Virus record (IMG/VR): IMGVR_UViG_3300036770_003758
Span: 38,211-102,210 of that record
Length of the DNA stretch: 64,000 nt
Reading direction: 5' to 3' (one strand)
Source of the DNA: a virus
Shown here: in pieces, positions 17,595-38,106 of the stretch
Position numbering within the stretch: the first letter of the stretch is position 1
How the letters are laid out: each line of letters starts with the position of its first letter
Translations under genes and position numbers: made by a program
Notes under the pieces: generated by a model
Told to the model about the DNA's origin: nothing
The model's input: the letters and a program-made list of their open reading frames with translations, nothing else
Databases searched by the model: none

Positions 17595-17628
17595 GATAAA
17601 GTGTTTATGAGTAAATAAATAAATAGCC

Positions 17629-17730
17629 TTATTTGCGTGCGATAAGTACCGTTAACCCACCGGGTTGTTCGTACAAATCGCAGTTTTCATCTTTAGGGGT
17701 AATTAGCCAATGTAAATAGTACACTTGCAT
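17629..17730 (-). CDS. Array unit 56 (33 aa)
   Basis: Begins MQVYYLHWLITPKDENCDLY and ends GGLTVLIARK. Last unit before the AAA+ gene; well-formed soluble sequence, overlapping unit 55 by 38 nt. Confidence 0.6.
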   Translation of the reverse strand: MQVYYLHWLITPKDENCDLYEQPGGLTVLIARK

Positions 17731-17821
17731 ATCTTAGTATTAAAAAGTAAGAACTGTTTGTTAAATTGTTTTCTATTCTAAGGTGCACGTGCATGTGGTA
17801 ATAAAACGTTATAAGTTTCAT
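17693..17821 (-). CDS. Array unit 55 (42 aa)
   Basis: Begins MKLITFYYHMHVHLRIENNL. Its ATG overlaps the stop of unit 54 as ATGA. The end runs into unit 56 rather than stopping at its start. Confidence 0.5.
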   Translation of the reverse strand: MKLITFYYHMHVHLRIENNLTNSSYFLILRYASVLFTLANYP

Positions 17822-18012
17822 GTTTTAAACTTTAACGTTGCCGTCATAGCACTGTGGTCAGACTTAGCGTAATTAAAAGAATCTCTTATCACGTGGTTTA
17901 AATCTAAACCAAGTATAAACTTAAGTTTGTTTAATTCCATTGCTGTAGTTTTTGAATGTAGAAAATAGAAGTCTTTACCAGCAAGAATACAGTTCGTCGT
18001 TTCATAGACCAC
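17818..18012 (-). CDS. Array unit 54 (64 aa, GTG start)
   Basis: Frame starts with GTG (VYETTNCILAGKDFYFLHS) and contains an internal ATG at 17,940 giving a usual-size 40-residue product MELNKLKFILGLDLNHV. The longer frame looks protein-like; a competing 39-codon frame (17,931-18,050) overlaps its first half. Confidence 0.5.
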   Translation of the reverse strand: MVYETTNCILAGKDFYFLHSKTTAMELNKLKFILGLDLNHVIRDSFNYAKSDHSAMTATLKFKT

Positions 18013-18050
18013 CAGTATTTCTTATTCATGTGAATGCTGTATATATTCAT

Positions 18051-18131
18051 CTATTGTAATTTTTGAACTAAACCGCAATAGTTATATTCGTATACTAAAC
18101 TACAGTGAAAAGTAGGATGTACCCACTGCAT
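18051..18131 (-). CDS. Array unit 53 (26 aa)
   Basis: Begins MQWVHPTFHCSLVYEYNYCG. Shortest unit; it starts after a TTTAAAAGT box and stops with TAG. Confidence 0.45.
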   Translation of the reverse strand: MQWVHPTFHCSLVYEYNYCGLVQKLQ

Positions 18132-18142
18132 ACTTTTAAATA

Positions 18143-18253
18143 TCAACATATTAACTTATTTATTAATATAAATATTTTTGAAGCAGCGTCTATTTTAACT
18201 GCACTAGTGTAATATTGATACGGAAACATTGTTGAAATTCCTCTTATCAGCAT
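18143..18253 (-). CDS. Array unit 52 (36 aa)
   Basis: Begins MLIRGISTMFPYQYYTSAVK and ends SKIFILINKLIC, following the hydrophobic-Lys ending common in the array. Confidence 0.55.
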   Translation of the reverse strand: MLIRGISTMFPYQYYTSAVKIDAASKIFILINKLIC

Positions 18254-18363
18254 ACCGTGTGCTTAAGTGTTAACAAATACTTAGTTCTAACAGTATTTAC
18301 TTTAGCGATATGAAAGTTAAAGTGAAAATTCTGGCATTTGACAACTATATTAATTACTTGCAT
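18247..18363 (-). CDS. Array unit 51 (38 aa)
   Basis: Ends NTVRTKYLLTLKHTVC; the segment TKYLLTLK also occurs near the end of unit 45 (TKYLLTIK), suggesting common origin. Confidence 0.55.
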   Translation of the reverse strand: MQVINIVVKCQNFHFNFHIAKVNTVRTKYLLTLKHTVC

Positions 18364-18464
18364 ACCATGTATTTCAACAAGGCTTTTACATCGACTCTAT
18401 TTTCATTAGCGTTTCTGAAGCAAAAGTCTTGTGCCCTTGTTAATCTTAAATCAGATAGCTCCAT
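18354..18464 (-). CDS. Array unit 50 (36 aa)
   Basis: Begins MELSDLRLTRAQDFCFRNAN and ends ALLKYMVCK; compare ends of units 20, 48 and 49. Coupled to unit 49 through ATGTAATGG. Confidence 0.6.
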   Translation of the reverse strand: MELSDLRLTRAQDFCFRNANENRVDVKALLKYMVCK

Positions 18465-18592
18465 TACATGTATTTTAATAAAGTTATGTAATTCTTTCTT
18501 TTGTAATGTTCAGCATACGTGGTTATCATCTCGTAGCTGTTACCAATTGCGTAGTCTAATATAATGTCGTATAAACGATCGTTTATTTCCAT
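18464..18592 (-). CDS. Array unit 49 (42 aa)
   Basis: Begins MEINDRLYDIILDYAIGNSY and ends KNYITLLKYM. Well-formed amphipathic helical sequence. Confidence 0.65.
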   Translation of the reverse strand: MEINDRLYDIILDYAIGNSYEMITTYAEHYKRKNYITLLKYM

Positions 18593-18708
18593 AACATGTA
18601 TTTTGCGATTAACCTAATGTCAACGTCAAGTTTTTCTGCAGTATCTTCAAATCGTATAAGTTTCTTTGAACCAAAAAAACTTACATTATACAATGTAGTA
18701 CACCTCAT
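18583..18708 (-). CDS. Array unit 48 (41 aa)
   Basis: Begins MRCTTLYNVSFFGSKKLIRF, ends IRLIAKYMLWK. Its stop lies just inside unit 49, so the last residues are read across the next start. Confidence 0.6.
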   Translation of the reverse strand: MRCTTLYNVSFFGSKKLIRFEDTAEKLDVDIRLIAKYMLWK

Positions 18709-18818
18709 ACAATAAATTTTAGACAGCAATCGTGAAAAACAAATGGCCAAGTAGAAGCTTTGTATAGTTCTTTACAACCAGCAGAGTAGTTTGTGAACCT
18801 AAACATTAACGTGGTCAT
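18705..18818 (-). CDS. Array unit 47 (37 aa)
   Basis: Begins MTTLMFRFTNYSAGCKELYK. Three Cys, aromatic-rich. ATGA overlaps on both sides. Confidence 0.55.
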   Translation of the reverse strand: MTTLMFRFTNYSAGCKELYKASTWPFVFHDCCLKFIV

Positions 18819-18943
18819 TTGTATTTGTTTTTAGACTTACGTTGATCTTTTTTGTATTCTACGTAGGCCATCGTGTAAGCAAACACTAGAATAAAGCTTA
18901 CGATAAACAAAAACCCTAAAATTATTTTTGCGAAATTATCCAT
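18815..18943 (-). CDS. Array unit 46, membrane miniprotein (42 aa)
   Basis: Begins MDNFAKIILGFLFIVSFILV: one transmembrane helix (about residues 5-26) followed by a Lys/Arg-rich tail. It differs from the soluble units and may be an unrelated gene nested in the array. Confidence 0.65.
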   Translation of the reverse strand: MDNFAKIILGFLFIVSFILVFAYTMAYVEYKKDQRKSKNKYK

Positions 18944-18945
18944 GG

Positions 18946-19050
18946 TTATATGTATTTAATTGTTAACAAATATTTAGTATTAAACATTTCTCCTGATATA
19001 AAAGTGTGTACAGGTTGTATGTGGTATCTGTTTAATCTTTCTGTTGGCAT
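18946..19050 (-). CDS. Array unit 45 (34 aa)
   Basis: Begins MPTERLNRYHIQPVHTFISG and ends TKYLLTIKYI, similar to the end of unit 51. Confidence 0.55.
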   Translation of the reverse strand: MPTERLNRYHIQPVHTFISGEMFNTKYLLTIKYI

Positions 19051-19217
19051 TGGTGAAATTTTACAATTAGTTGATAAGTATTTCTAACAGTAGGTGTGTA
19101 AAACATCATGGTGTATACGTGATATTTTATCTTTACTACAGGCATTTTACAATTAGTTGTTGATAAGCATTTATAATAGTAGGTACATGATAGGGCATGT
19201 TGTGCGCATGATACCAT
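19032..19217 (-). CDS. Array unit 44 (61 aa, perhaps a fusion)
   Basis: Begins MVSCAQHALSCTYYYKCLST. Two internal DNA copies of CATTTTACAATTAGTTG (plus-strand sense) suggest two former units merged; an internal ATG would give a 37-residue product ending YQLIVKFHQCQQKD. Confidence 0.45.
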   Translation of the reverse strand: MVSCAQHALSCTYYYKCLSTTNCKMPVVKIKYHVYTMMFYTPTVRNTYQLIVKFHQCQQKD

Positions 19218-19224
19218 ATTTTTA

Positions 19225-19329
19225 TCACATGCATTTTACAATTATTTTTAAGTAGTGATCATAATAAGGTTTCCACATAAGCTTTCTACTTATACGAGCA
19301 CGTGTGTAATCTATTTCTTCACTCCACAT
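19225..19329 (-). CDS. Array unit 43 (34 aa)
   Basis: Begins MWSEEIDYTRARISRKLMWK. Its start overlaps the end of unit 42 in a different phase from the usual ATGA. Confidence 0.5.
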   Translation of the reverse strand: MWSEEIDYTRARISRKLMWKPYYDHYLKIIVKCM

Positions 19330-19432
19330 ATTTTGTAGTTATTAAAGTGTACGCGGCTGTATACGTAAATGTTCTATACAGTATATAAACATTATTCTTG
19401 TCAAATAAATAAAAAGATTTAGCTATATTCAT
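19319..19432 (-). CDS. Array unit 42 (37 aa)
   Basis: Begins MNIAKSFYLFDKNNVYILYR. Tyr-rich, with the ending TLITTKYVE. ATGA overlap with unit 41. Confidence 0.55.
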   Translation of the reverse strand: MNIAKSFYLFDKNNVYILYRTFTYTAAYTLITTKYVE

Positions 19433-19551
19433 TTTTGTTTAAATACGATTAAATAAATAGTATTTACATTGTCAAAATCTGCATCACAGTACTTTTCTTT
19501 TTTAGAGCAGTAGTAATACTGATAATAAAAATCGTCAACTTCAAATTCCAT
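19429..19551 (-). CDS. Array unit 41 (40 aa)
   Basis: Begins MEFEVDDFYYQYYYCSKKEK. Acidic and Tyr-rich, unlike most units. Confidence 0.55.
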   Translation of the reverse strand: MEFEVDDFYYQYYYCSKKEKYCDADFDNVNTIYLIVFKQK

Positions 19552-19554
19552 AGT

Positions 19555-19653
19555 TTACAGTTTATACGTTTGTGATACAATAAAGTGCAACTTAGTTCCA
19601 CCAAACTTGATTTTGTGAACAAAAACTTCTTGCATAATAAAGAATATGTTCAT
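19555..19653 (-). CDS. Array unit 40 (32 aa)
   Basis: Begins MNIFFIMQEVFVHKIKFGGT. Beta-prone; ATGA overlap with unit 39. Confidence 0.5.
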   Translation of the reverse strand: MNIFFIMQEVFVHKIKFGGTKLHFIVSQTYKL

Positions 19654-19745
19654 AGCTGTTTAATTAGCACAAGATTTGAACCTAAATTGTAGTTAAATGG
19701 TACAAAAAGTTGACCAGGTACGTGAAATTTAAACTCCATTATCAT
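19650..19745 (-). CDS. Array unit 39 (31 aa)
   Basis: Contains MEFKFHVPGQLFVPFNYNL, which lines up with unit 38 (SYTFYVP..YPAITIEYHL); probable paralogue. Confidence 0.55.
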   Translation of the reverse strand: MIMEFKFHVPGQLFVPFNYNLGSNLVLIKQL

Positions 19746-19746
19746 G

Positions 19747-19845
19747 TCAGTAGTATTTAAGCATTGTGATAAACGCGTGTAGATGATACTCTATCGTTAT
19801 AGCTGGATAGCATTTAGGCACGTAGAACGTATAGCTTTGTTCCAT
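19747..19845 (-). CDS. Array unit 38 (32 aa)
   Basis: Begins MEQSYTFYVPKCYPAITIEY; probable paralogue of unit 39. Ends FITMLKYY. Confidence 0.55.
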   Translation of the reverse strand: MEQSYTFYVPKCYPAITIEYHLHAFITMLKYY

Positions 19846-19859
19846 AGTAGATATTTTAC

Positions 19860-19982
19860 TTATCTGCATCGTATATGTTTTACTACAATTCTAAATCCAA
19901 TGTCTAGTGTAAGGTCTAATATATTTCTATTAGGAAACCTGAGTTCGTAATTAGCTTGTACAAGCGTGTTATAATACATCAT
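19860..19982 (-). CDS. Array unit 37 (40 aa)
   Basis: Begins MMYYNTLVQANYELRFPNRN and ends FRIVVKHIRCR; reads past the next start before stopping. Confidence 0.55.
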   Translation of the reverse strand: MMYYNTLVQANYELRFPNRNILDLTLDIGFRIVVKHIRCR

Positions 19983-20104
19983 TGCCGTAGAAATTTTAAC
20001 ATTAAAATAAACCTATCTCTTTCTGTCATATTGTTGTGTATGTATTGAATAACACTTTTACCCATACCTCTAAAATCTGGATATATAGCTGTTAAATACA
20101 TCAT
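19979..20104 (-). CDS. Array unit 36 (41 aa), paralogue of unit 35
   Basis: Begins MMYLTAIYPDFRGMGKSVIQ. 23 of the first 40 positions are identical to unit 35 without gaps, including YP.FR.MGK, IQY and DRFI..LKF. The sequence resembles the acetyl-CoA-binding turn of GNAT enzymes but is far too short to be one. Confidence 0.7.
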   Translation of the reverse strand: MMYLTAIYPDFRGMGKSVIQYIHNNMTERDRFILMLKFLRQ

Positions 20105-20223
20105 GGTATAAACTTTAGTGTAAAAATAAATCTGTCTATTTCAGATATATTCTCAGGTAAATATTGAATAATGTTCTTACCCATGTTTCTAAACTCTGGG
20201 TACATAGCAAGTAAAGACATCAT
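20101..20223 (-). CDS. Array unit 35 (40 aa), paralogue of unit 36
   Basis: Begins MMSLLAMYPEFRNMGKNIIQ; the closest pair in the array is units 35 and 36. Conserved protein positions with diverged codons argue that the frame is translated. Confidence 0.7.
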   Translation of the reverse strand: MMSLLAMYPEFRNMGKNIIQYLPENISEIDRFIFTLKFIP

Positions 20224-20342
20224 AGTATTTGTTTTAATGTTATACTAAACCCATGACATACTGGTTCACGTAAACCATGTAGATAAGTGTATTTTATTTT
20301 TGTGCGACTGTGATTAAATAAAATCGCAATTAAATTTCTCAT
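20220..20342 (-). CDS. Array unit 34 (40 aa)
   Basis: Begins MRNLIAILFNHSRTKIKYTY and ends GFSITLKQIL; the ending FSITLK recurs in unit 28. Confidence 0.6.
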   Translation of the reverse strand: MRNLIAILFNHSRTKIKYTYLHGLREPVCHGFSITLKQIL

Positions 20343-20470
20343 GGTACGTGTTTTAAGATAAGTTGAAATCTATCATAAGATGTGATTCTTTCTTGTGTTT
20401 TAAGCGTTTTTTTCAAAGGTGTAAATTTTCTGCGATAAGTTTTAAGAAGCCAGAAGTGTATTGATTTCAT
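20339..20470 (-). CDS. Array unit 33 (43 aa)
   Basis: Begins MKSIHFWLLKTYRRKFTPLK and ends YDRFQLILKHVP; DRFQLILKH is identical to unit 32. Confidence 0.6.
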   Translation of the reverse strand: MKSIHFWLLKTYRRKFTPLKKTLKTQERITSYDRFQLILKHVP

Positions 20471-20586
20471 TACATATGTTTTAAAATAAGTTGAAACCTA
20501 TCCTCGTACACAATATCAGCTACAAGATTTGCTTCTACCCTACTCTTGTAAGCTGCAGGATTGCGTACAAATATTACTGCTAACAT
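20470..20586 (-). CDS. Array unit 32 (38 aa)
   Basis: Begins MLAVIFVRNPAAYKSRVEAN and ends EDRFQLILKHM, sharing nine consecutive residues with unit 33. Confidence 0.6.
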   Translation of the reverse strand: MLAVIFVRNPAAYKSRVEANLVADIVYEDRFQLILKHM

Positions 20587-20693
20587 GGTATTTGTTTTAA
20601 TGTAGCATACAATCTGCGTACAGTATTTCCTGGGTTACATAAGTTTATGCGCAAGTATCTGTAAAAATCAATTTGTATTTCAATATTCTTCAT
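20580..20693 (-). CDS. Array unit 31 (37 aa)
   Basis: Begins MKNIEIQIDFYRYLRINLCN; ends ATLKQIPC, reading across the next start. Confidence 0.55.
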   Translation of the reverse strand: MKNIEIQIDFYRYLRINLCNPGNTVRRLYATLKQIPC

Positions 20694-20803
20694 GATGTTT
20701 GTTTTAATATTACAGTAATTTTTATACGTTTTATATCTATCTCAATATTTCTTACAAAATCATCACAACGTGTACTTGAACAATCGATAATTACAACTGT
20801 CAT
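20690..20803 (-). CDS. Array unit 30 (37 aa)
   Basis: Begins MTVVIIDCSSTRCDDFVRNI; ends ITVILKQTS. ATGA overlaps on both sides. Confidence 0.6.
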   Translation of the reverse strand: MTVVIIDCSSTRCDDFVRNIEIDIKRIKITVILKQTS

Positions 20804-20904
20804 TGTATATGTTTTAAAATAATAGAAAAGCCCTCGCGACCGCTGTATCCTAGTATCATTACAGTCAAATAAGCGGCTGTATATCCATATGAGTAAGTTT
20901 TCAT
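20800..20904 (-). CDS. Array unit 29 (34 aa), paralogue of unit 28
   Basis: Begins MKTYSYGYTAAYLTVMILGY. Same length as unit 28 with 16 of 34 identical positions, including LG.SG.E.FSI.LK. Confidence 0.65.
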   Translation of the reverse strand: MKTYSYGYTAAYLTVMILGYSGREGFSIILKHIQ

Positions 20905-21005
20905 GGTATCAACTTTAAAGTAATCGAAAAGGATTCATCTCCACTATGTCCTAGTTCGTGCACAGAAATACAACTGTATGTGTGTTCATATGCCCATGTG
21001 TTCAT
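20901..21005 (-). CDS. Array unit 28 (34 aa), paralogue of unit 29
   Basis: Begins MNTWAYEHTYSCISVHELGH and ends DESFSITLKLIP. Tandem copy of unit 29. Confidence 0.65.
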   Translation of the reverse strand: MNTWAYEHTYSCISVHELGHSGDESFSITLKLIP

Positions 21006-21106
21006 AACATTAGTTTTAATATTATTGATAAATCATCTTGAATAAAATCGTACACTTCAGGTGCATTTATAATATGTGTTCCAAGAACTAAGTGTATCGT
21101 GTTCAT
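21002..21106 (-). CDS. Array unit 27 (34 aa)
   Basis: Begins MNTIHLVLGTHIINAPEVYD and ends QDDLSIILKLML; belongs with units 22 and 24-26 sharing an acidic-aromatic-LK ending. Confidence 0.6.
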   Translation of the reverse strand: MNTIHLVLGTHIINAPEVYDFIQDDLSIILKLML

Positions 21107-21213
21107 AGTATAAACTTTATCATAACTAGAAAATCATCGTCAAAAAATGGTATTAAACCACGATCTTTGTCTACTAGTTTGCAAGAATATATTACGTATG
21201 TTGTTACGTCCAT
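21103..21213 (-). CDS. Array unit 26 (36 aa)
   Basis: Begins MDVTTYVIYSCKLVDKDRGL and ends DDDFLVMIKFIL, parallel to unit 24 (NDDFIITLKLIL). Confidence 0.6.
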   Translation of the reverse strand: MDVTTYVIYSCKLVDKDRGLIPFFDDDFLVMIKFIL

Positions 21214-21290
21214 AATATTTTCATTGTAATTAAAATACTATCTTCTCCATAGAATATGTGATCTACAAGTGTTATGTATTTTGTGTCCAC
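21204..21290 (-). CDS. Array unit 25 (28 aa, GTG start)
   Basis: Starts with GTG after TTAAAACTAATATT; contains DTKYITLVDHIFYGEDSILI. Short member of the acidic-ending group. Confidence 0.5.
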   Translation of the reverse strand: MDTKYITLVDHIFYGEDSILITMKILWT

Positions 21291-21397
21291 AATATTAGTT
21301 TTAACGTGATTATAAAATCATCGTTTAGGTTAGTAGAATATTTTAACACGCTCAATAAACACGAGTGCGCAGTAACTAATGTTTTTGTACATTCCAT
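21272..21397 (-). CDS. Array unit 24 (41 aa)
   Basis: Begins MECTKTLVTAHSCLLSVLKY; contains NDDFIITLKLIL then WTQNT read across the GTG start of unit 25. Confidence 0.6.
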   Translation of the reverse strand: MECTKTLVTAHSCLLSVLKYSTNLNDDFIITLKLILWTQNT

Positions 21398-21522
21398 CTC
21401 AATACAATTAAGAAATCTTTATCTTCAAGTTTTGTTTTTTCTAGTCTATCCAGTAAATGCTTGTTATCGTGTGTACCAATAGGCATACATAGATCTAACA
21501 TTGTAAAATGTGCTATTTCCAT
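21376..21522 (-). CDS. Array unit 23 (48 aa)
   Basis: Begins MEIAHFTMLDLCMPIGTHDN; includes RLEKTKLEDKDFLIVLRW, whose KDFLIVL resembles the DDF.. endings of neighbouring units. Confidence 0.6.
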   Translation of the reverse strand: MEIAHFTMLDLCMPIGTHDNKHLLDRLEKTKLEDKDFLIVLRWNVQKH

Positions 21523-21647
21523 CACATGTATTTAACCATAAAAATAAAATCATTCTTGACGTAGCTACAATTACTAAATGCTAAGTAATCTAAATACAGT
21601 TTACAATCTATACTGTGTACCCACATTGTTAAGTCTGTAAATTTCAT
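21522..21647 (-). CDS. Array unit 22 (41 aa)
   Basis: Begins MKFTDLTMWVHSIDCKLYLD and ends KNDFIFMVKYM. Confidence 0.6.
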   Translation of the reverse strand: MKFTDLTMWVHSIDCKLYLDYLAFSNCSYVKNDFIFMVKYM

Positions 21648-21766
21648 AACATGTACTTATTTGCTAACTGTAAAATAACCTTAAGATGTGCACAGTTGAT
21701 ATAAGATGGAGTAAACACATCATTATCTAGTAAGATGTATTCCCAATCCCTATGTTCTACTTGCAT
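21644..21766 (-). CDS. Array unit 21 (40 aa)
   Basis: Begins MQVEHRDWEYILLDNDVFTP; ends LQLANKYML. The first half resembles unit 20 (VETGWNYI.D.F..PYI). Confidence 0.6.
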   Translation of the reverse strand: MQVEHRDWEYILLDNDVFTPSYINCAHLKVILQLANKYML

Positions 21767-21876
21767 AACATATACTTTTTTATAAGCCTAAAGTTAGGTT
21801 TAAAGAAAGCGTATTTAATAATATAAGGTTCAAGAAATGCATCTGTAATATAATTCCAACCAGTTTCTACTTTCAC
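21757..21876 (-). CDS. Array unit 20 (39 aa, GTG start)
   Basis: GTG-started; begins VKVETGWNYITDAFLEPYII, alignable with unit 21 (QVEHRDWEYILLDNDVFTPSYI). Ends LIKKYMLCK. Confidence 0.55.
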   Translation of the reverse strand: MKVETGWNYITDAFLEPYIIKYAFFKPNFRLIKKYMLCK

Positions 21877-21992
21877 GATATCTGTTTTACAATAATTAAA
21901 GGTAATACAGTAGGCTTACTTATTTTGCGATCAGCATCATACATTGGATTTGATATAGGGAGGTTTACGTAAAACGTCATAAATGCTATCAT
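21873..21992 (-). CDS. Array unit 19 (39 aa)
   Basis: Begins MIAFMTFYVNLPISNPMYDA; ends PLIIVKQIS. Confidence 0.55.
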   Translation of the reverse strand: MIAFMTFYVNLPISNPMYDADRKISKPTVLPLIIVKQIS

Positions 21993-22114
21993 GGTACATA
22001 TTTTAATACGAATACAGTAATATCTATGTTAGGTGCATGTTTTGATTCAGTGTGAAATCTATAGATATCGTGAAGTCTATAACTATCAAAAGTGTAATCT
22101 AATGAAGCTTTCAT
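21989..22114 (-). CDS. Array unit 18 (41 aa), paralogue of unit 16
   Basis: Begins MKASLDYTFDSYRLHDIYRF; shares M+A.L.YT, a KH.PN.DI.V core and the VxKYV ending with unit 16, with a six-residue insertion. Confidence 0.65.
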   Translation of the reverse strand: MKASLDYTFDSYRLHDIYRFHTESKHAPNIDITVFVLKYVP

Positions 22115-22206
22115 ACAAGCGTTTTAAGAGTTACAATAAACTGTTGTGTCAAATACGAGTGTGAATAAAATCTCCAGTCTAGTTCGTATACTTTCTTTAC
22201 GCTCAT
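22111..22206 (-). CDS. Array unit 17 (31 aa)
   Basis: Begins MSVKKVYELDWRFYSHSYLT; ends FIVTLKTLV. Confidence 0.55.
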   Translation of the reverse strand: MSVKKVYELDWRFYSHSYLTQQFIVTLKTLV

Positions 22207-22310
22207 TGTACGTATTTTATTACAAGTACAGCAATATCCCTATTGTGCGGATGTTTTAATTCAGGATGGATTTTATGACCACCTCTAGTGTAGTTTAATA
22301 AAGCTCTCAT
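22203..22310 (-). CDS. Array unit 16 (35 aa), paralogue of unit 18
   Basis: Begins MRALLNYTRGGHKIHPELKH and ends IAVLVIKYVQ. See unit 18. Confidence 0.65.
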   Translation of the reverse strand: MRALLNYTRGGHKIHPELKHPHNRDIAVLVIKYVQ

Positions 22311-22408
22311 ACAGATATTTTATTGATGGTTAAAAAAGATGTACCTGCGTAAGTTATTTTTAATTTTACTCTAGGGCTGTCGACCCATAAAATGTATAAC
22401 AACTTCAT
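22307..22408 (-). CDS. Array unit 15 (33 aa)
   Basis: Begins MKLLYILWVDSPRVKLKITY; ends FLTINKISV. Confidence 0.55.
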   Translation of the reverse strand: MKLLYILWVDSPRVKLKITYAGTSFLTINKISV

Positions 22409-22506
22409 TCTGCATTTTTTATGATAGCAAATAAACATAATCCAGCTTTACCAGATCTTCTGTCATTTTTAAGGTTAGTGCCTACGACACTGTGTGTTAT
22501 AATCAT
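22405..22506 (-). CDS. Array unit 14 (33 aa), paralogue of unit 12
   Basis: Begins MIITHSVVGTNLKNDRRSGK. Ungapped match to unit 12 with 12 of 33 identities, including N.K....SG.AG..LF.I.K. Confidence 0.65.
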   Translation of the reverse strand: MIITHSVVGTNLKNDRRSGKAGLCLFAIIKNAE

Positions 22507-22619
22507 TGTATGTGTTTTAAGTTAATTCTAAATCTAAGTACAGTAATGACATAGGTTTTAAGATCTATTTTAAGTACTATGTCAGGTTGCATAGTTTGTA
22601 CAAATCCTACAAATTTCAT
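22503..22619 (-). CDS. Array unit 13 (38 aa)
   Basis: Begins MKFVGFVQTMQPDIVLKIDL; ends RFRINLKHIQ. Lies between the paralogues 12 and 14, so any duplication was of a multi-gene block or was followed by rearrangement. Confidence 0.6.
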   Translation of the reverse strand: MKFVGFVQTMQPDIVLKIDLKTYVITVLRFRINLKHIQ

Positions 22620-22717
22620 GGTTTGTATTTTAAAATAAAAAATAAAGAAAATCCTGCTTCACCAGATTTGTAATTGTGTTTAAAATTAGATTCTCCAATA
22701 CTTAAAATCGCTGTCAT
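22616..22717 (-). CDS. Array unit 12 (33 aa), paralogue of unit 14
   Basis: Begins MTAILSIGESNFKHNYKSGE and ends SLFFILKYKP. Confidence 0.65.
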   Translation of the reverse strand: MTAILSIGESNFKHNYKSGEAGFSLFFILKYKP

Positions 22718-22863
22718 GGTATGTGTTTTACAATAGCTCCAAAATTACTTGCGTTGTGATTCAAGTTTAAATAATCTACAGCTTCGTGTAAACGTATAGT
22801 CATGTAGTTATTTATGTACGGTGTAGTAACTGCTCTGTACATCATTAAGTCTATAAACTTCAT
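22714..22863 (-). CDS. Array unit 11 (49 aa)
   Basis: Begins MKFIDLMMYRAVTTPYINNY at the ATG that overlaps unit 10's stop. The frame is open further upstream to 22,941, but that extension is antisense in phase to unit 10 and unlikely. Ends FGAIVKHIP. Confidence 0.6.
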   Translation of the reverse strand: MKFIDLMMYRAVTTPYINNYMTIRLHEAVDYLNLNHNASNFGAIVKHIP

Positions 22864-22985
22864 GATATAAGTTTTAATATAAACAAATGTCCACGACTTT
22901 GGTGAGATGCGTTCATTACGTAGTTTTTTGGAAGTGTCCAATCATTTACAGGTGGTACGTATGCAATTATGTGTTTTGTTTCCAC
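22860..22985 (-). CDS. Array unit 10 (41 aa, GTG start)
   Basis: GTG-started after TTAAAAGTAATACC; begins VETKHIIAYVPPVNDWTLPK. Ends LFILKLIS with the usual ATGA overlap. Confidence 0.55.
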   Translation of the reverse strand: METKHIIAYVPPVNDWTLPKNYVMNASHQSRGHLFILKLIS

Positions 22986-23089
22986 GGTATTACTTTTAAT
23001 ATGATTAATGTTTTTATTGATATCATACTTGTTAGCAATCGTACGTTGTGAGAATATTTATCGTTTTTAAAAAGCGGTACTGTTCTCAT
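22967..23089 (-). CDS. Array unit 9 (40 aa)
   Basis: Begins MRTVPLFKNDKYSHNVRLLT; ends IILKVIPWKQNT, the last five residues being read across the GTG start of unit 10. Confidence 0.55.
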   Translation of the reverse strand: MRTVPLFKNDKYSHNVRLLTSMISIKTLIILKVIPWKQNT

Positions 23090-23217
23090 AAAACTAGTTT
23101 TAACGTAAAATAAGCAGAATAAGGTGGTACATTATCTAGCTGTAATATCTCAAGTGCGTGGTCTGTTAAAGTACATACAAACTCGTCTTTAACAAGTGTC
23201 ATTTCAATAAACCTCAT
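23086..23217 (-). CDS. Array unit 8 (43 aa)
   Basis: Begins MRFIEMTLVKDEFVCTLTDH; ends YFTLKLVL. Confidence 0.6.
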   Translation of the reverse strand: MRFIEMTLVKDEFVCTLTDHALEILQLDNVPPYSAYFTLKLVL

Positions 23218-23336
23218 AGCTTATACTTTTGTACAATTATTACTTTCTTCTTAGTAGTTGTGTAGTTTAACGGCCCTTTCCATGTAGTAAAGTGCGTACG
23301 TACAGTATCTATAAATATTAAATCGACATTGTTCAC
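23214..23336 (-). CDS. Array unit 7 (40 aa, GTG start)
   Basis: GTG-started after GCAAAAACATAAGCT; begins VNNVDLIFIDTVRTHFTTWK. It lies within the 3' part of unit 6 in another frame and has the standard position and ending (VIIVQKYKL). Confidence 0.5.
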   Translation of the reverse strand: MNNVDLIFIDTVRTHFTTWKGPLNYTTTKKKVIIVQKYKL

Positions 23337-23472
23337 AGCTTATGTTTTTGCACAAAAAAAAGTAATTACGATCTTTAAAAGTGTGATCTACCACTATAGG
23401 TATTTCCGCAAAGTTGATTGTCAAAAGTGTAAAGCTGTTTTTGAATATTAATACTATATAAACATTGCTCAT
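23251..23472 (-). CDS. Array unit 6 (73 aa)
   Basis: Begins MSNVYIVLIFKNSFTLLTIN. It runs 86 nt past the start of unit 7 without a stop, so the natural product may have ended nearby before a small deletion. It has paired Cys in FFLCKNISCEQCRF. Confidence 0.45.
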   Translation of the reverse strand: MSNVYIVLIFKNSFTLLTINFAEIPIVVDHTFKDRNYFFLCKNISCEQCRFNIYRYCTYALYYMERAVKLHNY

Positions 23473-23582
23473 AGCTTATATTTTAATAAGATATTGTAAT
23501 GAAGCATGTAATTACCTCTACCTGTGAGATATACATCTATACCATTGTCACGTATATCTAACAATAATCTGAGTGTGTTCAT
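23469..23582 (-). CDS. Array unit 5 (37 aa)
   Basis: Begins MNTLRLLLDIRDNGIDVYLT; ends YNILLKYKL. Confidence 0.6.
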   Translation of the reverse strand: MNTLRLLLDIRDNGIDVYLTGRGNYMLHYNILLKYKL

Positions 23583-23704
23583 TTTCTGTATTTTATTACA
23601 GCCCAGAAATGCATCAATAAACCTGTACCTATATGTCGATGTAATATTATATTACCATCTGTAGATTTAAAGTTTGATATCTCAAGTACTCCTAAGTAGT
23701 TCAT
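23579..23704 (-). CDS. Array unit 4 (41 aa)
   Basis: Begins MNYLGVLEISNFKSTDGNII; ends WAVIKYRK. ATGA overlaps on both sides. Confidence 0.6.
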   Translation of the reverse strand: MNYLGVLEISNFKSTDGNIILHRHIGTGLLMHFWAVIKYRK

Positions 23705-23805
23705 GGCACCAGTTTTAATATCGATAAATAACAAAAATCAATTTTTAAAAATCTCTTTGATTTAGGGCACTCATCATGCAGTGAGTACATTATAAATAAG
23801 TACAT
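23701..23805 (-). CDS. Array unit 3 (34 aa)
   Basis: Begins MYLFIMYSLHDECPKSKRFL; ends YLSILKLVP. It starts after TTAAAACACATACC but with six extra bases before the ATG. Confidence 0.55.
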   Translation of the reverse strand: MYLFIMYSLHDECPKSKRFLKIDFCYLSILKLVP

Positions 23806-23905
23806 AGATAGGTATGTGTTTTAATATTGCAAAAGCAGTTAGCTTAGATATAGATAATAATCTACTGTACACTTTAATATCAGCAAACAAAATTGTAGTT
23901 TTCAT
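23774..23905 (-). CDS. Array unit 2 (43 aa)
   Basis: Begins MKTTILFADIKVYSRLLSIS; FAILKHIP sits where other units end, but no stop follows and the frame runs 32 nt into unit 3. Confidence 0.5.
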   Translation of the reverse strand: MKTTILFADIKVYSRLLSISKLTAFAILKHIPIYVLIYNVLTA

Positions 23906-24006
23906 AACATGGTTTTAACTGTTACAGGTATGCTAATTTCATCAGGTAGTAATATATATGAATAAAGTTTATTTTGCTGCGTTATGTACAAAACTTCCAT
24001 TTTCAT
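23902..24006 (-). CDS. Array unit 1 (34 aa)
   Basis: Begins MKMEVLYITQQNKLYSYILL; ends VTVKTML. First unit in transcription order, preceded by TTTAATATACC and by a hairpin at 24,028. Confidence 0.55.
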   Translation of the reverse strand: MKMEVLYITQQNKLYSYILLPDEISIPVTVKTML

Positions 24007-24027
24007 AGGTAGGTATATTAAACACAA

Positions 24028-24050
24028 ATGCCCTTGGTTTACAAGGGCAT
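24028..24050 (-). terminator. Hairpin bounding the tiny-gene array
   Basis: ATGCCCTTG and CAAGGGCAT form a perfect 9-bp stem with a 5-nt loop just past the stop of the 46-residue gene. The T-run after it on the minus strand is interrupted (ATTTGTGTTT), so it may be a weak terminator or an attenuator for the array. Confidence 0.5.
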
Positions 24051-24056
24051 CGTGGA

Positions 24057-24197
24057 TTATGCAATTTCTGCAAGTTCTGGTTCTAAACCTGGGTAGATTT
24101 CTCGTATCTTAATCTCAGCTTCATCTTTACTAGAAGCTTCAATATGTACGACACCAGCACCAATAAAAAAAGTAAAAATTTGCTTTTCTTCTTCCAT
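24057..24197 (-). CDS. Small acidic protein (46 aa)
   Basis: Begins MEEEKQIFTFFIGAGVVHIE, then the helix SSKDEAEIKIREIYPG. A compact beta-beta-alpha layout similar to the next upstream small gene (24,278-24,442), which also has a beta hairpin and then SIEAIKESLP. Both lie between hairpins upstream of the array. Function unknown. Confidence 0.65.
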   Translation of the reverse strand: MEEEKQIFTFFIGAGVVHIEASSKDEAEIKIREIYPGLEPELAEIA

Positions 24198-24221
24198 AAT
24201 GTTTTGTTTATTAAATTAGAC

Positions 24222-24251
24222 AAAAAACCAGGGCTATATTTCAAGCCCTGG
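24222..24251 (-). terminator. Rho-independent terminator
   Basis: CCAGGGCT pairs with AGCCCTGG over an 8-nt loop, followed by TTTTTT on the minus strand. It lies 27 bases after the 54-residue gene's stop. Confidence 0.75.
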
Positions 24252-24277
24252 TACATAGTGAATCAAAGTATAAGGAG

Positions 24278-24442
24278 TCACTTGTTTTTCCAGATACGTT
24301 CTTTAGTCTTTTTTCCAGTAACAGTACACACTGTTTCTAAGTAAAACGCGCCGTGATTAGGTAAGCTTTCTTTAATAGCTTCGATGCTATCAGCTTCTAA
24401 GATGCGTTTACCTTTTTCGGTCACAATGTAATACTTTTTCAT
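24278..24442 (-). CDS. Hypothetical protein (54 aa)
   Basis: ATG at 24,442 gives MKKYYIVTEKGKRILEADSI; a longer open frame to 24,556 runs antisense in phase through the FGE-like gene end and is rejected. Two strands and a helix followed by a basic tail. Similar size and layout to the gene at 24,057. Confidence 0.65.
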   Translation of the reverse strand: MKKYYIVTEKGKRILEADSIEAIKESLPNHGAFYLETVCTVTGKKTKERIWKNK

Positions 24443-27261: not shown

Positions 27262-28095
27262 TTAACTCATGTTTATTTTGATAGAAATGTTGTCACGATC
27301 AGTACCTTTTATTTCTAAATACCAGCCTCCTATGTTTTTAGGTATAGCTAATTTTTCTATAGCCCATCCATTGCTCACAGTATATTCTTCTTTATATGTA
27401 CCTGATTTAATAAAATACTGTGGTTTTGTCAGCAATGTTCCAGTTTTTGTTACGTCATATCTAATAATTTCAGCTAAGTGTCTATCGTGTGTATGACCAC
27501 TAACAACAAAGTCAGCGTCTGTTACAGCACCGTATCTACTGTTAGCTTGAAACCCTTTCATTACTACACCTCCCCAAAGACCGTGATGATAATAAAGCAT
27601 GTATGTTTTTACATTAGCTCCATTACGGTGTAGTACAAACTTAATAAAACCGTGGTAACCTCCAGCATATACTTTATGTTCTGGAGTTTTATATAGATTT
27701 GAGACATCTACAAATCTTTTGATAACATCAGTTTCTAATCTGTTTAATATAGAATTTTCATGATTACCTTTAGAAACTAACGCTATAGGATAGTCCATTA
27801 ATTTAGCTACTGTATCTTCTATTACAGCATCTATGTAATTAGGAGTATTGTGTTCTGGTCTAATATCTTTTTTACTAGACCTAGGATCGTATTTCCCTTG
27901 CATCATGCAAAAGAAGTCACCAAACACAAATATCCTACCGTTGCGCTCTGCTACATAGTCTAAATGCTTATGTAGTTTATCACGTTGACATTTAGGGTTG
28001 TCATAGTGAAAATCACTGCCTAAAAAGAACAGTGCATCTTCTCCGTATGGTATGCGTACTTCTAAAAGCACGTCACTAATCTGTTTAATTTCCAT
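27262..28095 (-). CDS. Calcineurin-like metallophosphoesterase
   Basis: 277 residues from ATG at 28,095. Motifs in order: GSDFHYD (DxH), FGDFF (GD), GNHEN, a His in YYHHGLW, and SGHTHDRH (GHxH). These are all five metallophosphoesterase motifs for a two-metal centre. Substrate unknown: nucleotide, RNA or phosphoprotein. It is the only obvious hydrolase in this accessory stretch. Confidence 0.85.
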   Translation of the reverse strand: MEIKQISDVLLEVRIPYGEDALFFLGSDFHYDNPKCQRDKLHKHLDYVAERNGRIFVFGDFFCMMQGKYDPRSSKKDIRPEHNTPNYIDAVIEDTVAKLMDYPIALVSKGNHENSILNRLETDVIKRFVDVSNLYKTPEHKVYAGGYHGFIKFVLHRNGANVKTYMLYYHHGLWGGVVMKGFQANSRYGAVTDADFVVSGHTHDRHLAEIIRYDVTKTGTLLTKPQYFIKSGTYKEEYTVSNGWAIEKLAIPKNIGGWYLEIKGTDRDNISIKINMS

Positions 28096-28135
28096 GTTTT
28101 TTAATTTTTTTTTCAAAATTAAACAGATTTCTGAT

Positions 28136-30933: not shown

Positions 30934-31001
30934 TGGTCAAAACAGGAATCGAACCTGTATCTAGATGTTATCTAGGTTTTAGCCATTAAACTATTTGACC
31001 A
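30934..31001 (-). tRNA. tRNA-like gene, anticodon arm short
   Basis: The minus strand shows a 7-bp acceptor (GGTCAAA/TTTGACC), D-arm GTTT..AAAC, and a perfect T-arm ACAGG-TTCGATT-CCTGT. Only 17 nt separate the D- and T-stems, about six fewer than normal. The best anticodon arm is CTAG-ATAACAT-CTAG, which would place AAC (valine) at 34-36. CCA is not encoded after the discriminator. It may be a divergent functional tRNA or a decayed one. Confidence 0.7.
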
Positions 31002-33740: not shown

Positions 33741-33832
33741 AAAAAAGTAACTCCCAGCAGCCTGCTGAATACCTCCAACACTGAAGTTGTGTTGCCCTAT
33801 CCCTTTCGAGGAAGAGGTTTTGGAGTTACTTT
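33741..33832 (-). terminator. Branched terminator with three inserted hairpins
   Basis: The stem AAAGTAACTCC / GGAGTTACTTT (11 bp, ending in TTTTTT on the minus strand) encloses not a simple loop but CAGCAGCCTGCTG, CAACAC/GTGTTG and CCTTTCGAGG, making a cloverleaf-like junction. The stem overlaps the last codons of the FGE-like gene at 33,826. Confidence 0.7.
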
Positions 33833-34527
33833 GTAAGTGCTAAACGAAATCCACTGCCACCTGAAGAAAGAACAACAAGGCGAGACGCAATGCGGCAGTT
33901 TATGATATTGGCACTATAAGCACCACCACGTTCTGCCCGAAGAGGAGTTCCATCATATTCGTAATAACCTACTATGTCTTCGCACCATTCCCTTACATTA
34001 CCAGTCATATCGTAAAGCCCCAACTCATTGGGCTTCTTCTGCCCCACTGGATGCACTGTATTTCCAGAATTACCTTTATACCACGCAACTTCATGCAAGT
34101 TATTACTGCCTGCGTACCTGTATCCTTTGGTTTTTAAACCGCCACGGGCTGCAAACTCCCACTCTGCTTCCGTTGGCAAGCGATATTTCAGACCTGTTTT
34201 TTTGTTTATCTTAGCCAGAAACTTTTCAATCTTATAACAGTCTGCATATTGTACTGGACAATTGTCGCAGGTTCTCAAATACTTTGCTTTGTTTTTTATA
34301 ACTTCCCGCCACTGTTTCTGCGTAACCGGATACTTGCTAATATAGAAATCCGATACCGTTACTTGGTGTACAGGCTTTGTGTCCCTATCCCAATACACAA
34401 AACTTCTGTAATTACGTTCTCCTGGGAAAACGTTGATTCCCTGTTCTGAAGTGCGGCCCATCATTAATGTACCGCCTTTGACAAGAACCATGTTATTAAA
34501 AATTTCTTCTAAGATTTCTTCTAGCAT
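33826..34527 (-). CDS. FGE/SUMF1-family protein
   Basis: 233 residues. FYISKYPVTQKQWREVI, YRLPTEAEWEFAARGG, VAWYKGNSGNTVHPVGQKK, GLYDMTGNVREWCED and RGGAYSANIINCRIASR with GSGFRLA are the complete SUMF1 series. TCDNC near residue 95 may bind metal. It has the CR...R...GFR end used as the variable region in some diversity-generating retroelement targets. Composition is less AT-rich than neighbours, hinting at acquisition. Role unknown: surface binding is most likely. Confidence 0.85.
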   Translation of the reverse strand: MLEEILEEIFNNMVLVKGGTLMMGRTSEQGINVFPGERNYRSFVYWDRDTKPVHQVTVSDFYISKYPVTQKQWREVIKNKAKYLRTCDNCPVQYADCYKIEKFLAKINKKTGLKYRLPTEAEWEFAARGGLKTKGYRYAGSNNLHEVAWYKGNSGNTVHPVGQKKPNELGLYDMTGNVREWCEDIVGYYEYDGTPLRAERGGAYSANIINCRIASRLVVLSSGGSGFRLALTK

Positions 34528-36154: not shown

Positions 36155-36514
36155 TTAAAACACTTGCTGTTCCCAGTAAGTGTTAGTATACTTGTCCCAG
36201 TGCATCAGTATTAAGGAAACAGGTTTTTGGTCGTATTCTGGCTTCATATACCAGTCCCATGACTTGAATGTATAACAGTCAACAAATGCAGCCAAAAATT
36301 CCGTAGTTGCTGGCGTTAAACCAGTAATTATTACCCGTACTTCTACAGGTACTTCAGAATTTTTTGCTAGTGTCAAAGCTTCTTGCCATTTTTTTGATTT
36401 TACAACTTTTTTGGTTGCAAAATCAAAGTCCAGGCAAAGAGCGCCATCATTGGCTGGTAAATTATGTCCTGGACGCCCTTCAAAAAGAGCATACGTTTTA
36501 ACTATTTTTTTCAT
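36155..36514 (-). CDS. Hypothetical protein (119 aa)
   Basis: MKKIVKTYALFEGRPGHNLP, then VEVRVIITGLTPATTEFLAA: alpha/beta protein of unknown family. Start after TTAAAACA. A strong terminator lies upstream of it, so it has its own promoter. Confidence 0.6.
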   Translation of the reverse strand: MKKIVKTYALFEGRPGHNLPANDGALCLDFDFATKKVVKSKKWQEALTLAKNSEVPVEVRVIITGLTPATTEFLAAFVDCYTFKSWDWYMKPEYDQKPVSLILMHWDKYTNTYWEQQVF

Positions 36515-36537
36515 TGTTTTAAGGTTAAGAGATTAAC

Positions 36538-36576
36538 AAAAAAGGTGACGCAGCTACATTACATAGACTGCGTCAC
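36538..36576 (-). terminator. Rho-independent terminator
   Basis: GTGACGCAG pairs with CTGCGTCAC, then TTTTTT on the minus strand, 15 bases after the two-helix membrane gene. Confidence 0.8.
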
Positions 36577-36591
36577 TAAATCAAAGGATGT

Positions 36592-36786
36592 TTATTCTTT
36601 AATGTCCGTGAAGACTATTACGGGTGGAATCCACCCGAATATTATCAAGAGCATAATCATCCCGTTGCTCGTTGCGATTTCTCGCAACGATAATCCAGGA
36701 TTGAATATTAGCCCTAGTGTGGCGAAAAATAACCACGTTATAAGAAACGTGATTACCACGATGATCATAGTTTTAGTATTTTTCAT
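36592..36786 (-). CDS. Two-helix membrane protein (64 aa)
   Basis: MKNTKTMIIVVITFLITWLF (helix one), a Pro/Gly turn, then SNGMIMLLIIFGWIPPVIVF (helix two). It is the first gene after the large structured segment 36.83-37.69 kb. Function unknown. Confidence 0.6.
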   Translation of the reverse strand: MKNTKTMIIVVITFLITWLFFATLGLIFNPGLSLREIATSNGMIMLLIIFGWIPPVIVFTDIKE

Positions 36787-36831
36787 ACTAGTATATTATA
36801 TAGGTTAAAAAATTGTGTTTTACACCTAAAA

Positions 36832-37641
36832 CTTTGATTATTCATACAATGTCTTCTATTTGAAGATTCTGTAGTTGTCTACAGTAGTAAACACTCGATA
36901 CTCGAGTGGTTTTTAATCAAAGAAACTGGTGCCCTCAACAACTTGGGAATTTATTGAGTTTTTTATTCTCTGCACTCAGTTGTAACCTATAGAATCTATC
37001 ACTGTTACAGAACCTACAACTCTACAGTTTTTTGTAACGAAGGTTCAATAGGTTGATTCTTTTAGATACCTTAGACCTGTAGCTACTCAGGAAAGGTTAC
37101 AACTGTAGTGCAAAAACTAATCAACCGCTGTGAGCTTTTTATCACAGATAATAGAGTATTACCTCTTAGCCACTAATTAACTTAAAAAAAGTTAAAAAGT
37201 GCAGTTGATTAGTTTGTTATGTAATAAGTGATAATCCTTAAAACATAACTGGCTGTGGTAGGTGAACAGCTTAAACACCAATAGATTTTACAGTTCTATT
37301 CAACTGGCTGCAACAGGCATCACAAAGCTAATATCAGATTATCCTGATATTGGTCAAGCTTTGTTTAGCCCCTCACCCGTTAGGGCATGTTGCAGCAATT
37401 TCTAGCTTAATCTACACTTATAGCCGACCAAAGCTATAAGCTGATTTAAAAAAGATTAAAATAGGTACATGTGGTAACGATACAATTTAGTACCGCTACC
37501 GGAATATTTAAAAGTGATAAAATTTGTCTTAAAACACTGGATTTGAGCCGCGAAAACTCAAATCACTTTGTAGTTGAAAGAGTTGTGATAAATGGTGTTG
37601 AGTGGTTAATACCCTCTACACACACTACACAACTCCTTCAT
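36832..37641 (-). ncRNA. Large structured RNA candidate, about 800 nt
   Basis: No ORF; more than fifteen perfect stems. Domain 1: CTTTGATTA/TAATCAAAG (36,832 and 36,914) around hairpins at 36,852, 36,869 and 36,892. Domain 2: TGCACT-CAGTTGTAACC (36,971-36,987) with GGTTACAACTG-T-AGTGCA (37,095-37,112). Domain 3: CTAATCAAC/GTTGATTAG (37,117 and 37,204) around three hairpins. Domain 4: GCTGCAACA/TGTTGCAGC (37,307 and 37,388) enclosing two 8-bp stems. Last: GAA-GAGTTGTG with CACAACTC-TTC, where a G-U favours the minus strand. Confidence 0.65.
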
Positions 37642-37654
37642 TGTCAGGTTTTTG

Positions 37655-37690
37655 TAAAAAACCAACTAAGGATCTACAAGAGATCCTTAG
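37655..37690 (-). terminator. Rho-independent terminator
   Basis: CTAAGGATCT pairs with AGATCCTTAG over a 5-nt loop, followed on the minus strand by TTGGTTTTTT. It overlaps the final codons of gene 37,674-37,964 and separates it from the large structured RNA. Confidence 0.75.
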
Positions 37691-37964
37691 CGGTTATCTT
37701 CACTCTGGCTTGCGCTTCATCAGCGCGAAGCCACTCTGAGGTGGCACTGGCTTTACGCCAGTTACCACTGAAGAACATCTTGTTCCCACTCTTTGATGCA
37801 ACAATCTGATCCCCCATCTCTTCCAGATGGCGAATCGAGACCAGGTACAAAGATTTGTCGTCTTTGAGGACGACCGCACCCTGTTCGGGTGCAACCTTTA
37901 CAACCTCTAGCTTATTTGGGACGCTAGTGCCCATTGCTTCGTTTACGAAGTCAATTGCTCTCAT
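37674..37964 (-). CDS. Hypothetical protein (96 aa)
   Basis: ATG at 37,964 gives MRAIDFVNEAMGTSVPNKLE; an earlier in-frame ATG is less likely. Beta-rich with a basic C-terminus (EAQARVKITAKDLL). GC-richer than its flanks. It is the first gene downstream of the operator-like repeats at 38.1 kb. Confidence 0.6.
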   Translation of the reverse strand: MRAIDFVNEAMGTSVPNKLEVVKVAPEQGAVVLKDDKSLYLVSIRHLEEMGDQIVASKSGNKMFFSGNWRKASATSEWLRADEAQARVKITAKDLL

Positions 37965-38106
37965 GTCTTTAAGGTTTTGAGAGTACAGGGGCAATATCGC
38001 CCACAAGTACAAGGGGGGGTTGGAATTGGGAAGCCTAAACTCTCTCTATTATATATAAGCTATATTATATTACGACTTGTATTTTAGCTCAAACTCTCAC
38101 TACAAG

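Follow-up and report, generated by a model that had tools for sequence, protein, structure and literature searches.

The locus considered here raises the question of what a phage might make from a long intergenic stretch that folds much better than shuffled sequence. We analysed a window of 64 kb from a 102-kb virus record, in which the terminase resembles that of the crAss-like Cellulophaga phage phi14:2 (29% identity over 93%). The stretch of interest, at 36.8-37.66 kb, is flanked by minus-strand ORFs at 36592-36786 and 37674-38012. The original prediction was that it specifies one large noncoding RNA of about 800 nt, and the ORF listing agrees that no credible gene is present; the sole frame is a 112-aa ORF with a GTG start (37471-37809, plus strand) that lies antisense to the upstream gene. 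Folding of 36800-37670 against dinucleotide shuffles gave z-scores of -8.5 on the plus strand and -14.4 on the minus strand, with 0 of 20 shuffles as good on either strand. Some neighbouring coding windows also reach z-scores of -4 to -7, so that the fold z-score is by itself weak evidence and our case has been rested on comparative evidence. Taken together, the two bear out the prediction of a structured noncoding RNA in a phage.

The comparisons show that the minus strand from 37660 to 36809 encodes a series of structured RNA modules. The final one belongs to a family that we call M1, and its predecessor is a degenerate member of a second family, M2 (Table 1). The RNA had been read on the plus strand. 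This was rejected on the grounds of wobble pairs, which fix the strand, and of synteny: of 1020 pair cells in M1, 956 are standard on the correct strand and 913 when the other is read, and the corresponding counts for M2 are 989 and 949 of 1000.

Table 1. Structured elements of the intergenic stretch and its upstream border (window coordinates).
Element	Coordinates	Strand	Basis and remarks
M1 (core and inner cargo)	36809-36970	-	cmsearch, 92.6 bits, E 2e-19; 3' module of the stretch
M1 A-tract (36964-36959) and P1 5' arm (36958-36953, CUCAAU)	36953-36964	-	alignment A1
M1 5' dinucleotide YR, pseudoknot-type	36939-36940	-	pairs with 36816-36817
M1 P2 5' arm RCACC (36932-36928) and U-rich internal-loop strand AGUUU (36927-36923)	36922-36932	-	
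M1 P3 5' arm (CUU...)	starts 36922	-	covaries
M1 cargo of the window phage	36841-36913	-	fold; three simple hairpins
M1 3' core: P3 3' arm, UUUUA, P2 3' arm GGUGU (36826-36822), AAAA, dinucleotide (36817-36816)	36816-36840	-	
M2-like module	36972-37111	-	bulged closing stem GCACUACAGUUGUAACC / GGUUACAACUGAGUGC; match to M2 ends by sequence
Domain C	37114-37215	-	fold; closing stem AAACUAAUCAAC / GGUUGAUUAGUUU, three inner hairpins
Domain D	37307-37396	-	fold; three-way structure closed by GCUGCAACA / UGUUGCAGC
Domain E	37397-37520	-	fold; hairpins
Domain F (5' domain)	37523-37660	-	fold; long hairpin and 10-bp hairpin; 97% kept in near relative L087
Terminator-like hairpin, TGGTTTTTTA tail	37665-37691	-	end of upstream gene

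M1 was recognised from a single block of 45-50 nt that blastn of the stretch against named phages returned at an unannotated site in about 12 crAss-like phages. This first block and a second one of 20 nt, located 12-200 nt downstream, recur in 72 IMG/VR stretches, and the family comprises 67 distinct copies. The minus-strand consensus runs A5-6, CUYAAY, AACUUYCCAAGN, YRUUGAG, G, RCACC, AGUUU, CUU up to a variable inner domain (the cargo), and resumes on its 3' side with AAG, UUUUA, GGUGU, AAAA, YR, CA. The window copy has the core, the P2 and P3 helices and the YR/YR pairing that define M1, and it is the only match to the M1 model (R1) in its own genome at E <= 0.01; its cargo has no match past the core among the collected loci. 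Further M1 candidates at 27595-27698 and 22826-22923 were dismissed as chance, the first lying inside a CDS (27262-28116) and the others being weak.

Support for M1 as a folded RNA comes from an alignment of 51 copies with the inner domain trimmed (A1). The YR/YR dinucleotides are paired in all 51 sequences, as UA, CG, GC or AU (in one case by wobbles), with changes on both sides, and P3 covaries at five of its eight pairs. P2 is 100% paired and near-invariant except at one G-U/A-U pair, which is G-U in 26 of the 51 sequences. P1, with 97% of cells paired, is the weakest M1 helix because it shows no double-sided covariation, and RNAalifold, unaided, chose a YRUU/AAYR helix over it. Doubly changed cells number 118, as compared with 47 in column shuffles that ignore relatedness, and shifting the pairing partners by one to three columns abolishes pairing. 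The sequences were gathered via exact cores, which inflates apparent core conservation, and invariant helices in the M1 and M2 cores carry little information on pairing; P1 and P2 of M1 are less certain than the other helices. For the M1 part, then, homologues retain the stems through compensatory changes, which is the outcome that the original prediction had anticipated. An intrinsic terminator 3' of M1, looked for by eye, is not consistent among copies.

The second family came from the module that directly precedes M1 in several loci and terminates in UUACAACUGAGUGCAGAGGG. Its motif is AAUGCAC, CAYAA, CUCAC-UUCCCAAGG-GUGAG, CAGUUGUAAU, the variable domain, AUUACAACUG, A, GUGCA and GAGGG. These make up a hairpin whose loop is UUCCCAAGG, the arm that bears the cargo, the closing helix and, at the 3' end, a tail that complements the hairpin loop. 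M2 is present in more than 120 viral contigs at one or two copies per carrier genome; 257 Gb of bacterial genomes held two matching stretches, and none was found in named phages. Seventeen of 18 genomes picked for M2 gave no M1 match among the limited number of candidates scored. Across 40 copies 98.9% of pair cells are standard, and 83 are doubly changed versus 20 in shuffles, which again ignore relatedness. P1 of M2 covaries at four of five pairs (for example CUCAC/GUGAG, CCUGA/UCAGG and CUGGU/ACCAG) and P0 at three of five. The loop CCC and the tail GGG are complementary but invariant; by eye, and with exceptions, several copies that have lost the hairpin have also lost the GGG tail. M1 and M2 have three parts in common, in a different order: a hairpin that carries the CUUCCCAAG loop, an arm for the cargo, and a 3' tail that folds back to pair with the hairpin. 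We infer that the two are related architectures. Two variants were also seen: a third scaffold (GATGTGAAACYACCTGATTAAT ... ATTAATCAG) is fused at the M2 hairpin position in L068, L195 and L032, upstream of some M2 copies, and apparent tandem M2 copies occur in L126, L172 and L135, where GCAGAGG is followed within a few bases by AATGCACC.

In the window, the M2-like module retains the outer M2 stems (GCAC/GUGC plus CAGUUGUAA/UUACAACUG) and lacks both the P1 hairpin and the GGG tail that define M2, and its match to the M2 model (R2) is weak (16 bits, E 0.05). The long bulged stem described earlier for this region does exist, 37111-37095 pairing with 36987-36972. So do the segments proposed to pair across domains, GGTTGATT at 37051 and AATCAACC at 37119, along with GTTGATTAG at 37204; AATCAACC is able to pair with either of the other two, and the minimum-energy fold places it in a 12-bp stem of domain C. 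Domains C, D and E have no homologues among the collected loci and are single-sequence folds. At the upstream end, the terminator-like hairpin may separate the RNA stretch from the preceding gene; six terminator-like sites were found where 0.9 were expected.

Would these modules nevertheless be domains of one continuous, ornate RNA of about 850 nt that works in the manner of GOLLD or ROOL? A long-range stem forms when the whole stretch is folded to minimum energy, the size is right, and the nearby tRNA noted in the original prediction is there, on the same strand about 6 kb off (30934-31000, minus; detected by Rfam and missed by ARAGORN). In GOLLD, too, the 3' part is conserved and the 5' part varies, and both GOLLD and ROOL form a homo-oligomeric RNA cage (PMC12286853). 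Like them, the present stretch is large, structured and located in a phage near a tRNA; M1 and M2 differ in being separate small modules, with cores of about 70-80 nt, that appear in variable combination in crAss-like phages. Each occurs apart from the other, or without it, in other phages, and past the 3' end of domain F the nearest relative has an entirely different sequence. In L087, about 178 nt at and around domain F are conserved at 97%; the roughly 700 nt that follow are replaced by unrelated structured sequence of half that length (about 360 nt), which contains an M2-like stem of its own and lacks M1. We regard a single long RNA as very doubtful, and the notion of one fixed molecule of about 800 nt is not supported.

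Membership in a catalogued family fared no better. A cmscan search against Rfam 15, run on the whole window at the gathering score and on 36500-38100 at E values up to 10, gave no covariance-model match to GOLLD, ROOL, OLE or any other Rfam family that is relevant to the stretch. The suggestion of a new class was thereby upheld, if in the plural, as M1 and M2 are two new RNA families of crAss-like phages that Rfam does not list. Our literature search found no published description of either motif, although one may exist: a survey of human microbiomes that lists candidate structured RNAs by the thousand (PMC8040213) may include the gut form of M1 among its numbered entries.

Searched with the M1 model, 26 of 30 crAss-like phage genomes yielded exactly one copy each, a figure that describes copy number rather than prevalence, most of the 30 having been chosen as M1 carriers. 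In the remaining four genomes searched (phi14:2, two Kehishuvirus genomes and the nearest relative of the window phage) no match was found, and M1 is therefore dispensable, since the nearest relative does without it. Named carriers span five Suoliviridae subfamilies (that of cr272_1 by a weak match) and one Steigviridae, and loci from different subfamilies with little further DNA in common carry a block of 45-48 nt at 100% identity. Of the two divergent gene blocks, one has M1 close to its head, with the strand switch 1-4 kb upstream in most annotated cases. In the window this is the replication block (DNA polymerase, primase, helicases), and in cultured relatives such genes are early or middle genes transcribed by the virion RNA polymerase (PMC10136315). 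Only one of 68 M1 copies and none of 120 M2 copies lie inside an ORF of at least 80 aa, so that the motifs are not coding. No conserved partner gene or protein adjoining M1 was found.

A single copy near the head of one gene block is what might be expected if M1 and M2 were cis-acting leaders that control the replication block or the next gene through antitermination, translation or mRNA stability. Consistent with this idea, 53% of M1 and 30% of M2 copies are located 10-50 nt before an ORF of at least 30 aa, compared with 11% of intergenic controls. The put RNAs of phage HK022, which bring about processive antitermination, are likewise structured RNAs near the head of an early phage operon; M1 differs from them in having a variable inner domain and in sitting several genes into its block. 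From the sequences we consider a leader function unlikely: (i) the genes behind M1 are mostly unrelated; (ii) in most gut phages M1 has no start codon close by; (iii) M2 sometimes occurs twice and (iv) a leader would have no need for an exchangeable inner domain of 12-200 nt.

The inner domains of these elements are exchanged. Those of 84 M1 and 148 M2 copies fall into about 150 clusters, and several cargo families keep their base pairing through compensatory changes. The cleanest case of exchange is that of cr109_1 and cr113_1, members of one genus whose loci are 96-98% identical in their surroundings and have the same M1 core, with cargos of 49 and 111 nt, respectively; core and cargo of cr113_1 are in turn 96-97% identical to those of cr114_1 and cr115_1, which belong to another subfamily and show little other similarity at the locus. 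Exchange also crosses core types. A 134-nt cargo is common to M1 in L028 and M2 in L047 (74% identity), the joint fold having four compensatory pairs and none broken; a 201-nt M1 cargo recurs at 97.5% in a core without a hairpin (L124); and M2 cargos turn up again in L195, within the third scaffold type, in L064, within a short M2, and in L176 and L147, where the stems are unrelated or plain. Such sharing across cores is certain in few clusters, most cargos being found in one core only. In both M1 and M2 a constant core surrounds an inner RNA domain that is hypervariable and moves as a unit. The comparisons show this core to be under selection as RNA, near-invariant in sequence, and indifferent to both the adjoining gene and the domain that it encloses.

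Invariant flanks would aid recombination, and the cargos do recombine, which raises the matter of whether the cores act as DNA, as recombination sites or promoter hairpins, with the RNA-like structure a by-product. Precedent exists in the N4-like virion RNA polymerase promoters, which are DNA hairpins. We nevertheless hold a DNA-level role to be highly improbable. Wobble pairs, such as that in P2, are common and strand-specific, pairs are lost on the other strand, and the cargos themselves retain base pairing; the strand-specific G-U pairs in particular led us to disfavour a hairpin promoter or recombination site.

The reading we lean towards, tentatively and at somewhat less than even chance, is that M1 and M2 are early RNA scaffolds carrying exchangeable effector domains. 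With a constant core, and with enclosed domains that are structured, diverse and traded, the simplest reading is a division of labour between a part facing a constant partner and a variable part. Transcription early in infection would follow from the position of the modules near the head of the replication block, which in relatives is assigned to the virion RNA polymerase. The invariant core may cap, protect or present the inner domain, perhaps by way of a protein or of a triple helix; the U-rich internal loop and A-tracts of M1 would allow the latter, which we offer as a suggestion. On this view the work would be done by the inner domains, and their action on targets in the host or in rival phages would account for their diversification and trade. 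A broader proposal, that crAss-like phages possess a modular RNA system in which near-invariant pseudoknotted scaffolds display interchangeable, fast-diversifying domains, traded as cassettes, as early RNA effectors, is possible and is put forward with still more reserve. Several observations sit poorly with the scaffold reading: the start codon that follows about half of the M1 copies at a distance of 10-50 nt is more in keeping with a leader than with a free RNA, M1 has no linked partner protein and is dispensable, and most cargos are confined to one core.

Two known systems invite comparison. The Y RNAs bound by Ro (TROVE) proteins also have a constant stem bearing a variable module. A Ro/Y RNA system was rejected, as TROVE is absent from 39 of 40 phages tested, including all M1 and M2 genomes, and the single carrier, crAss001 (L246, 97428-97706), has neither M1 nor M2. 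ENE and related triple-helix elements are RNA stability elements, and the U-rich internal loop and conserved A-tracts of M1 recall them; the U runs of M1 are short, however, and M2 has no such feature.

A different function is suggested by the RNAs that accompany the modules, and because of them a ribozyme reading is nearly as likely as the scaffold reading. M1 and M2 might each be a self-cleaving ribozyme of a new class, or an element for RNA processing, by which a long noncoding phage transcript is cut into pieces; the inner domain would then be no more than a tolerated peripheral extension. In gut relatives M1 is the first of a same-strand series of structured RNAs, preceding RAGATH-6, RAGATH-7, RAGATH-14, hammerhead and hatchet motifs in ORF-poor sequence of about 1.4 kb. 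In cr53_1 it is followed by RAGATH-14, a sub-threshold hammerhead and two hatchets, and in cr114_1 by RAGATH-6 (just below the gathering score), RAGATH-7 and a hatchet; M2 loci elsewhere contain a hatchet, a near-threshold pistol and tRNAs. The core is also compact and pseudoknotted, many of its loop nucleotides are invariant and one stem varies freely, as in known small ribozymes. Against this, the Rfam hatchet, hammerhead, pistol, twister and RAGATH models match beside M1 and M2, and none matches the motifs themselves. No ribozyme or RAGATH match lies in the window at 36500-38100 (Rfam 15, E up to 10). Furthermore, near-invariant core helices are unusual for nucleolytic ribozymes, and cleavage leaves the unit-wise movement of inner domains between cores unexplained. 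On balance, we consider cleavage by M1 and M2 possible, though less likely than not.

The consequences would differ accordingly. Effector inner domains, as in the scaffold reading, would amount to RNA-based diversification in phages comparable to protein ORFan islands; cleaving cores would constitute new ribozyme classes. CrAss-like phages are among the most abundant human gut viruses, M1 and M2 carriers include both gut and environmental members, and the long gene-free stretches near the head of one of their gene blocks, hitherto unannotated, prove to contain two undescribed RNA families beside known ribozymes. In 2015 hatchet ribozymes were reported from metagenomic DNA only, with no assigned source (PMC4604424); they are now placed in named phage genomes.

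Several further observations were made in passing. Named gut crAss-like phages (L002-L014) have long ORF-poor stretches in which matches to hatchet, hammerhead and RAGATH-6/7/14, and weak ones to twister, crowd a single strand, for example at 865-2620 in L008 and 1148-2620 in L011. In two viral contigs tmRNA genes lie kilobases from M1 (L016, 5709-6083; L071, 6064-6414). The window itself contains a second gene-poor region, at 17595-24440, comprising 6.8 kb of 30% GC without an ORF of 100 aa or an Rfam match, in which (17.6-24.4 kb) recoding of TAG or TGA opens no ORFs. Finally, 33826-34527 on the minus strand encodes a protein with an FGE-sulfatase domain, a fold that frequently serves as a variable receptor, and this protein is a possible diversity-generating target.
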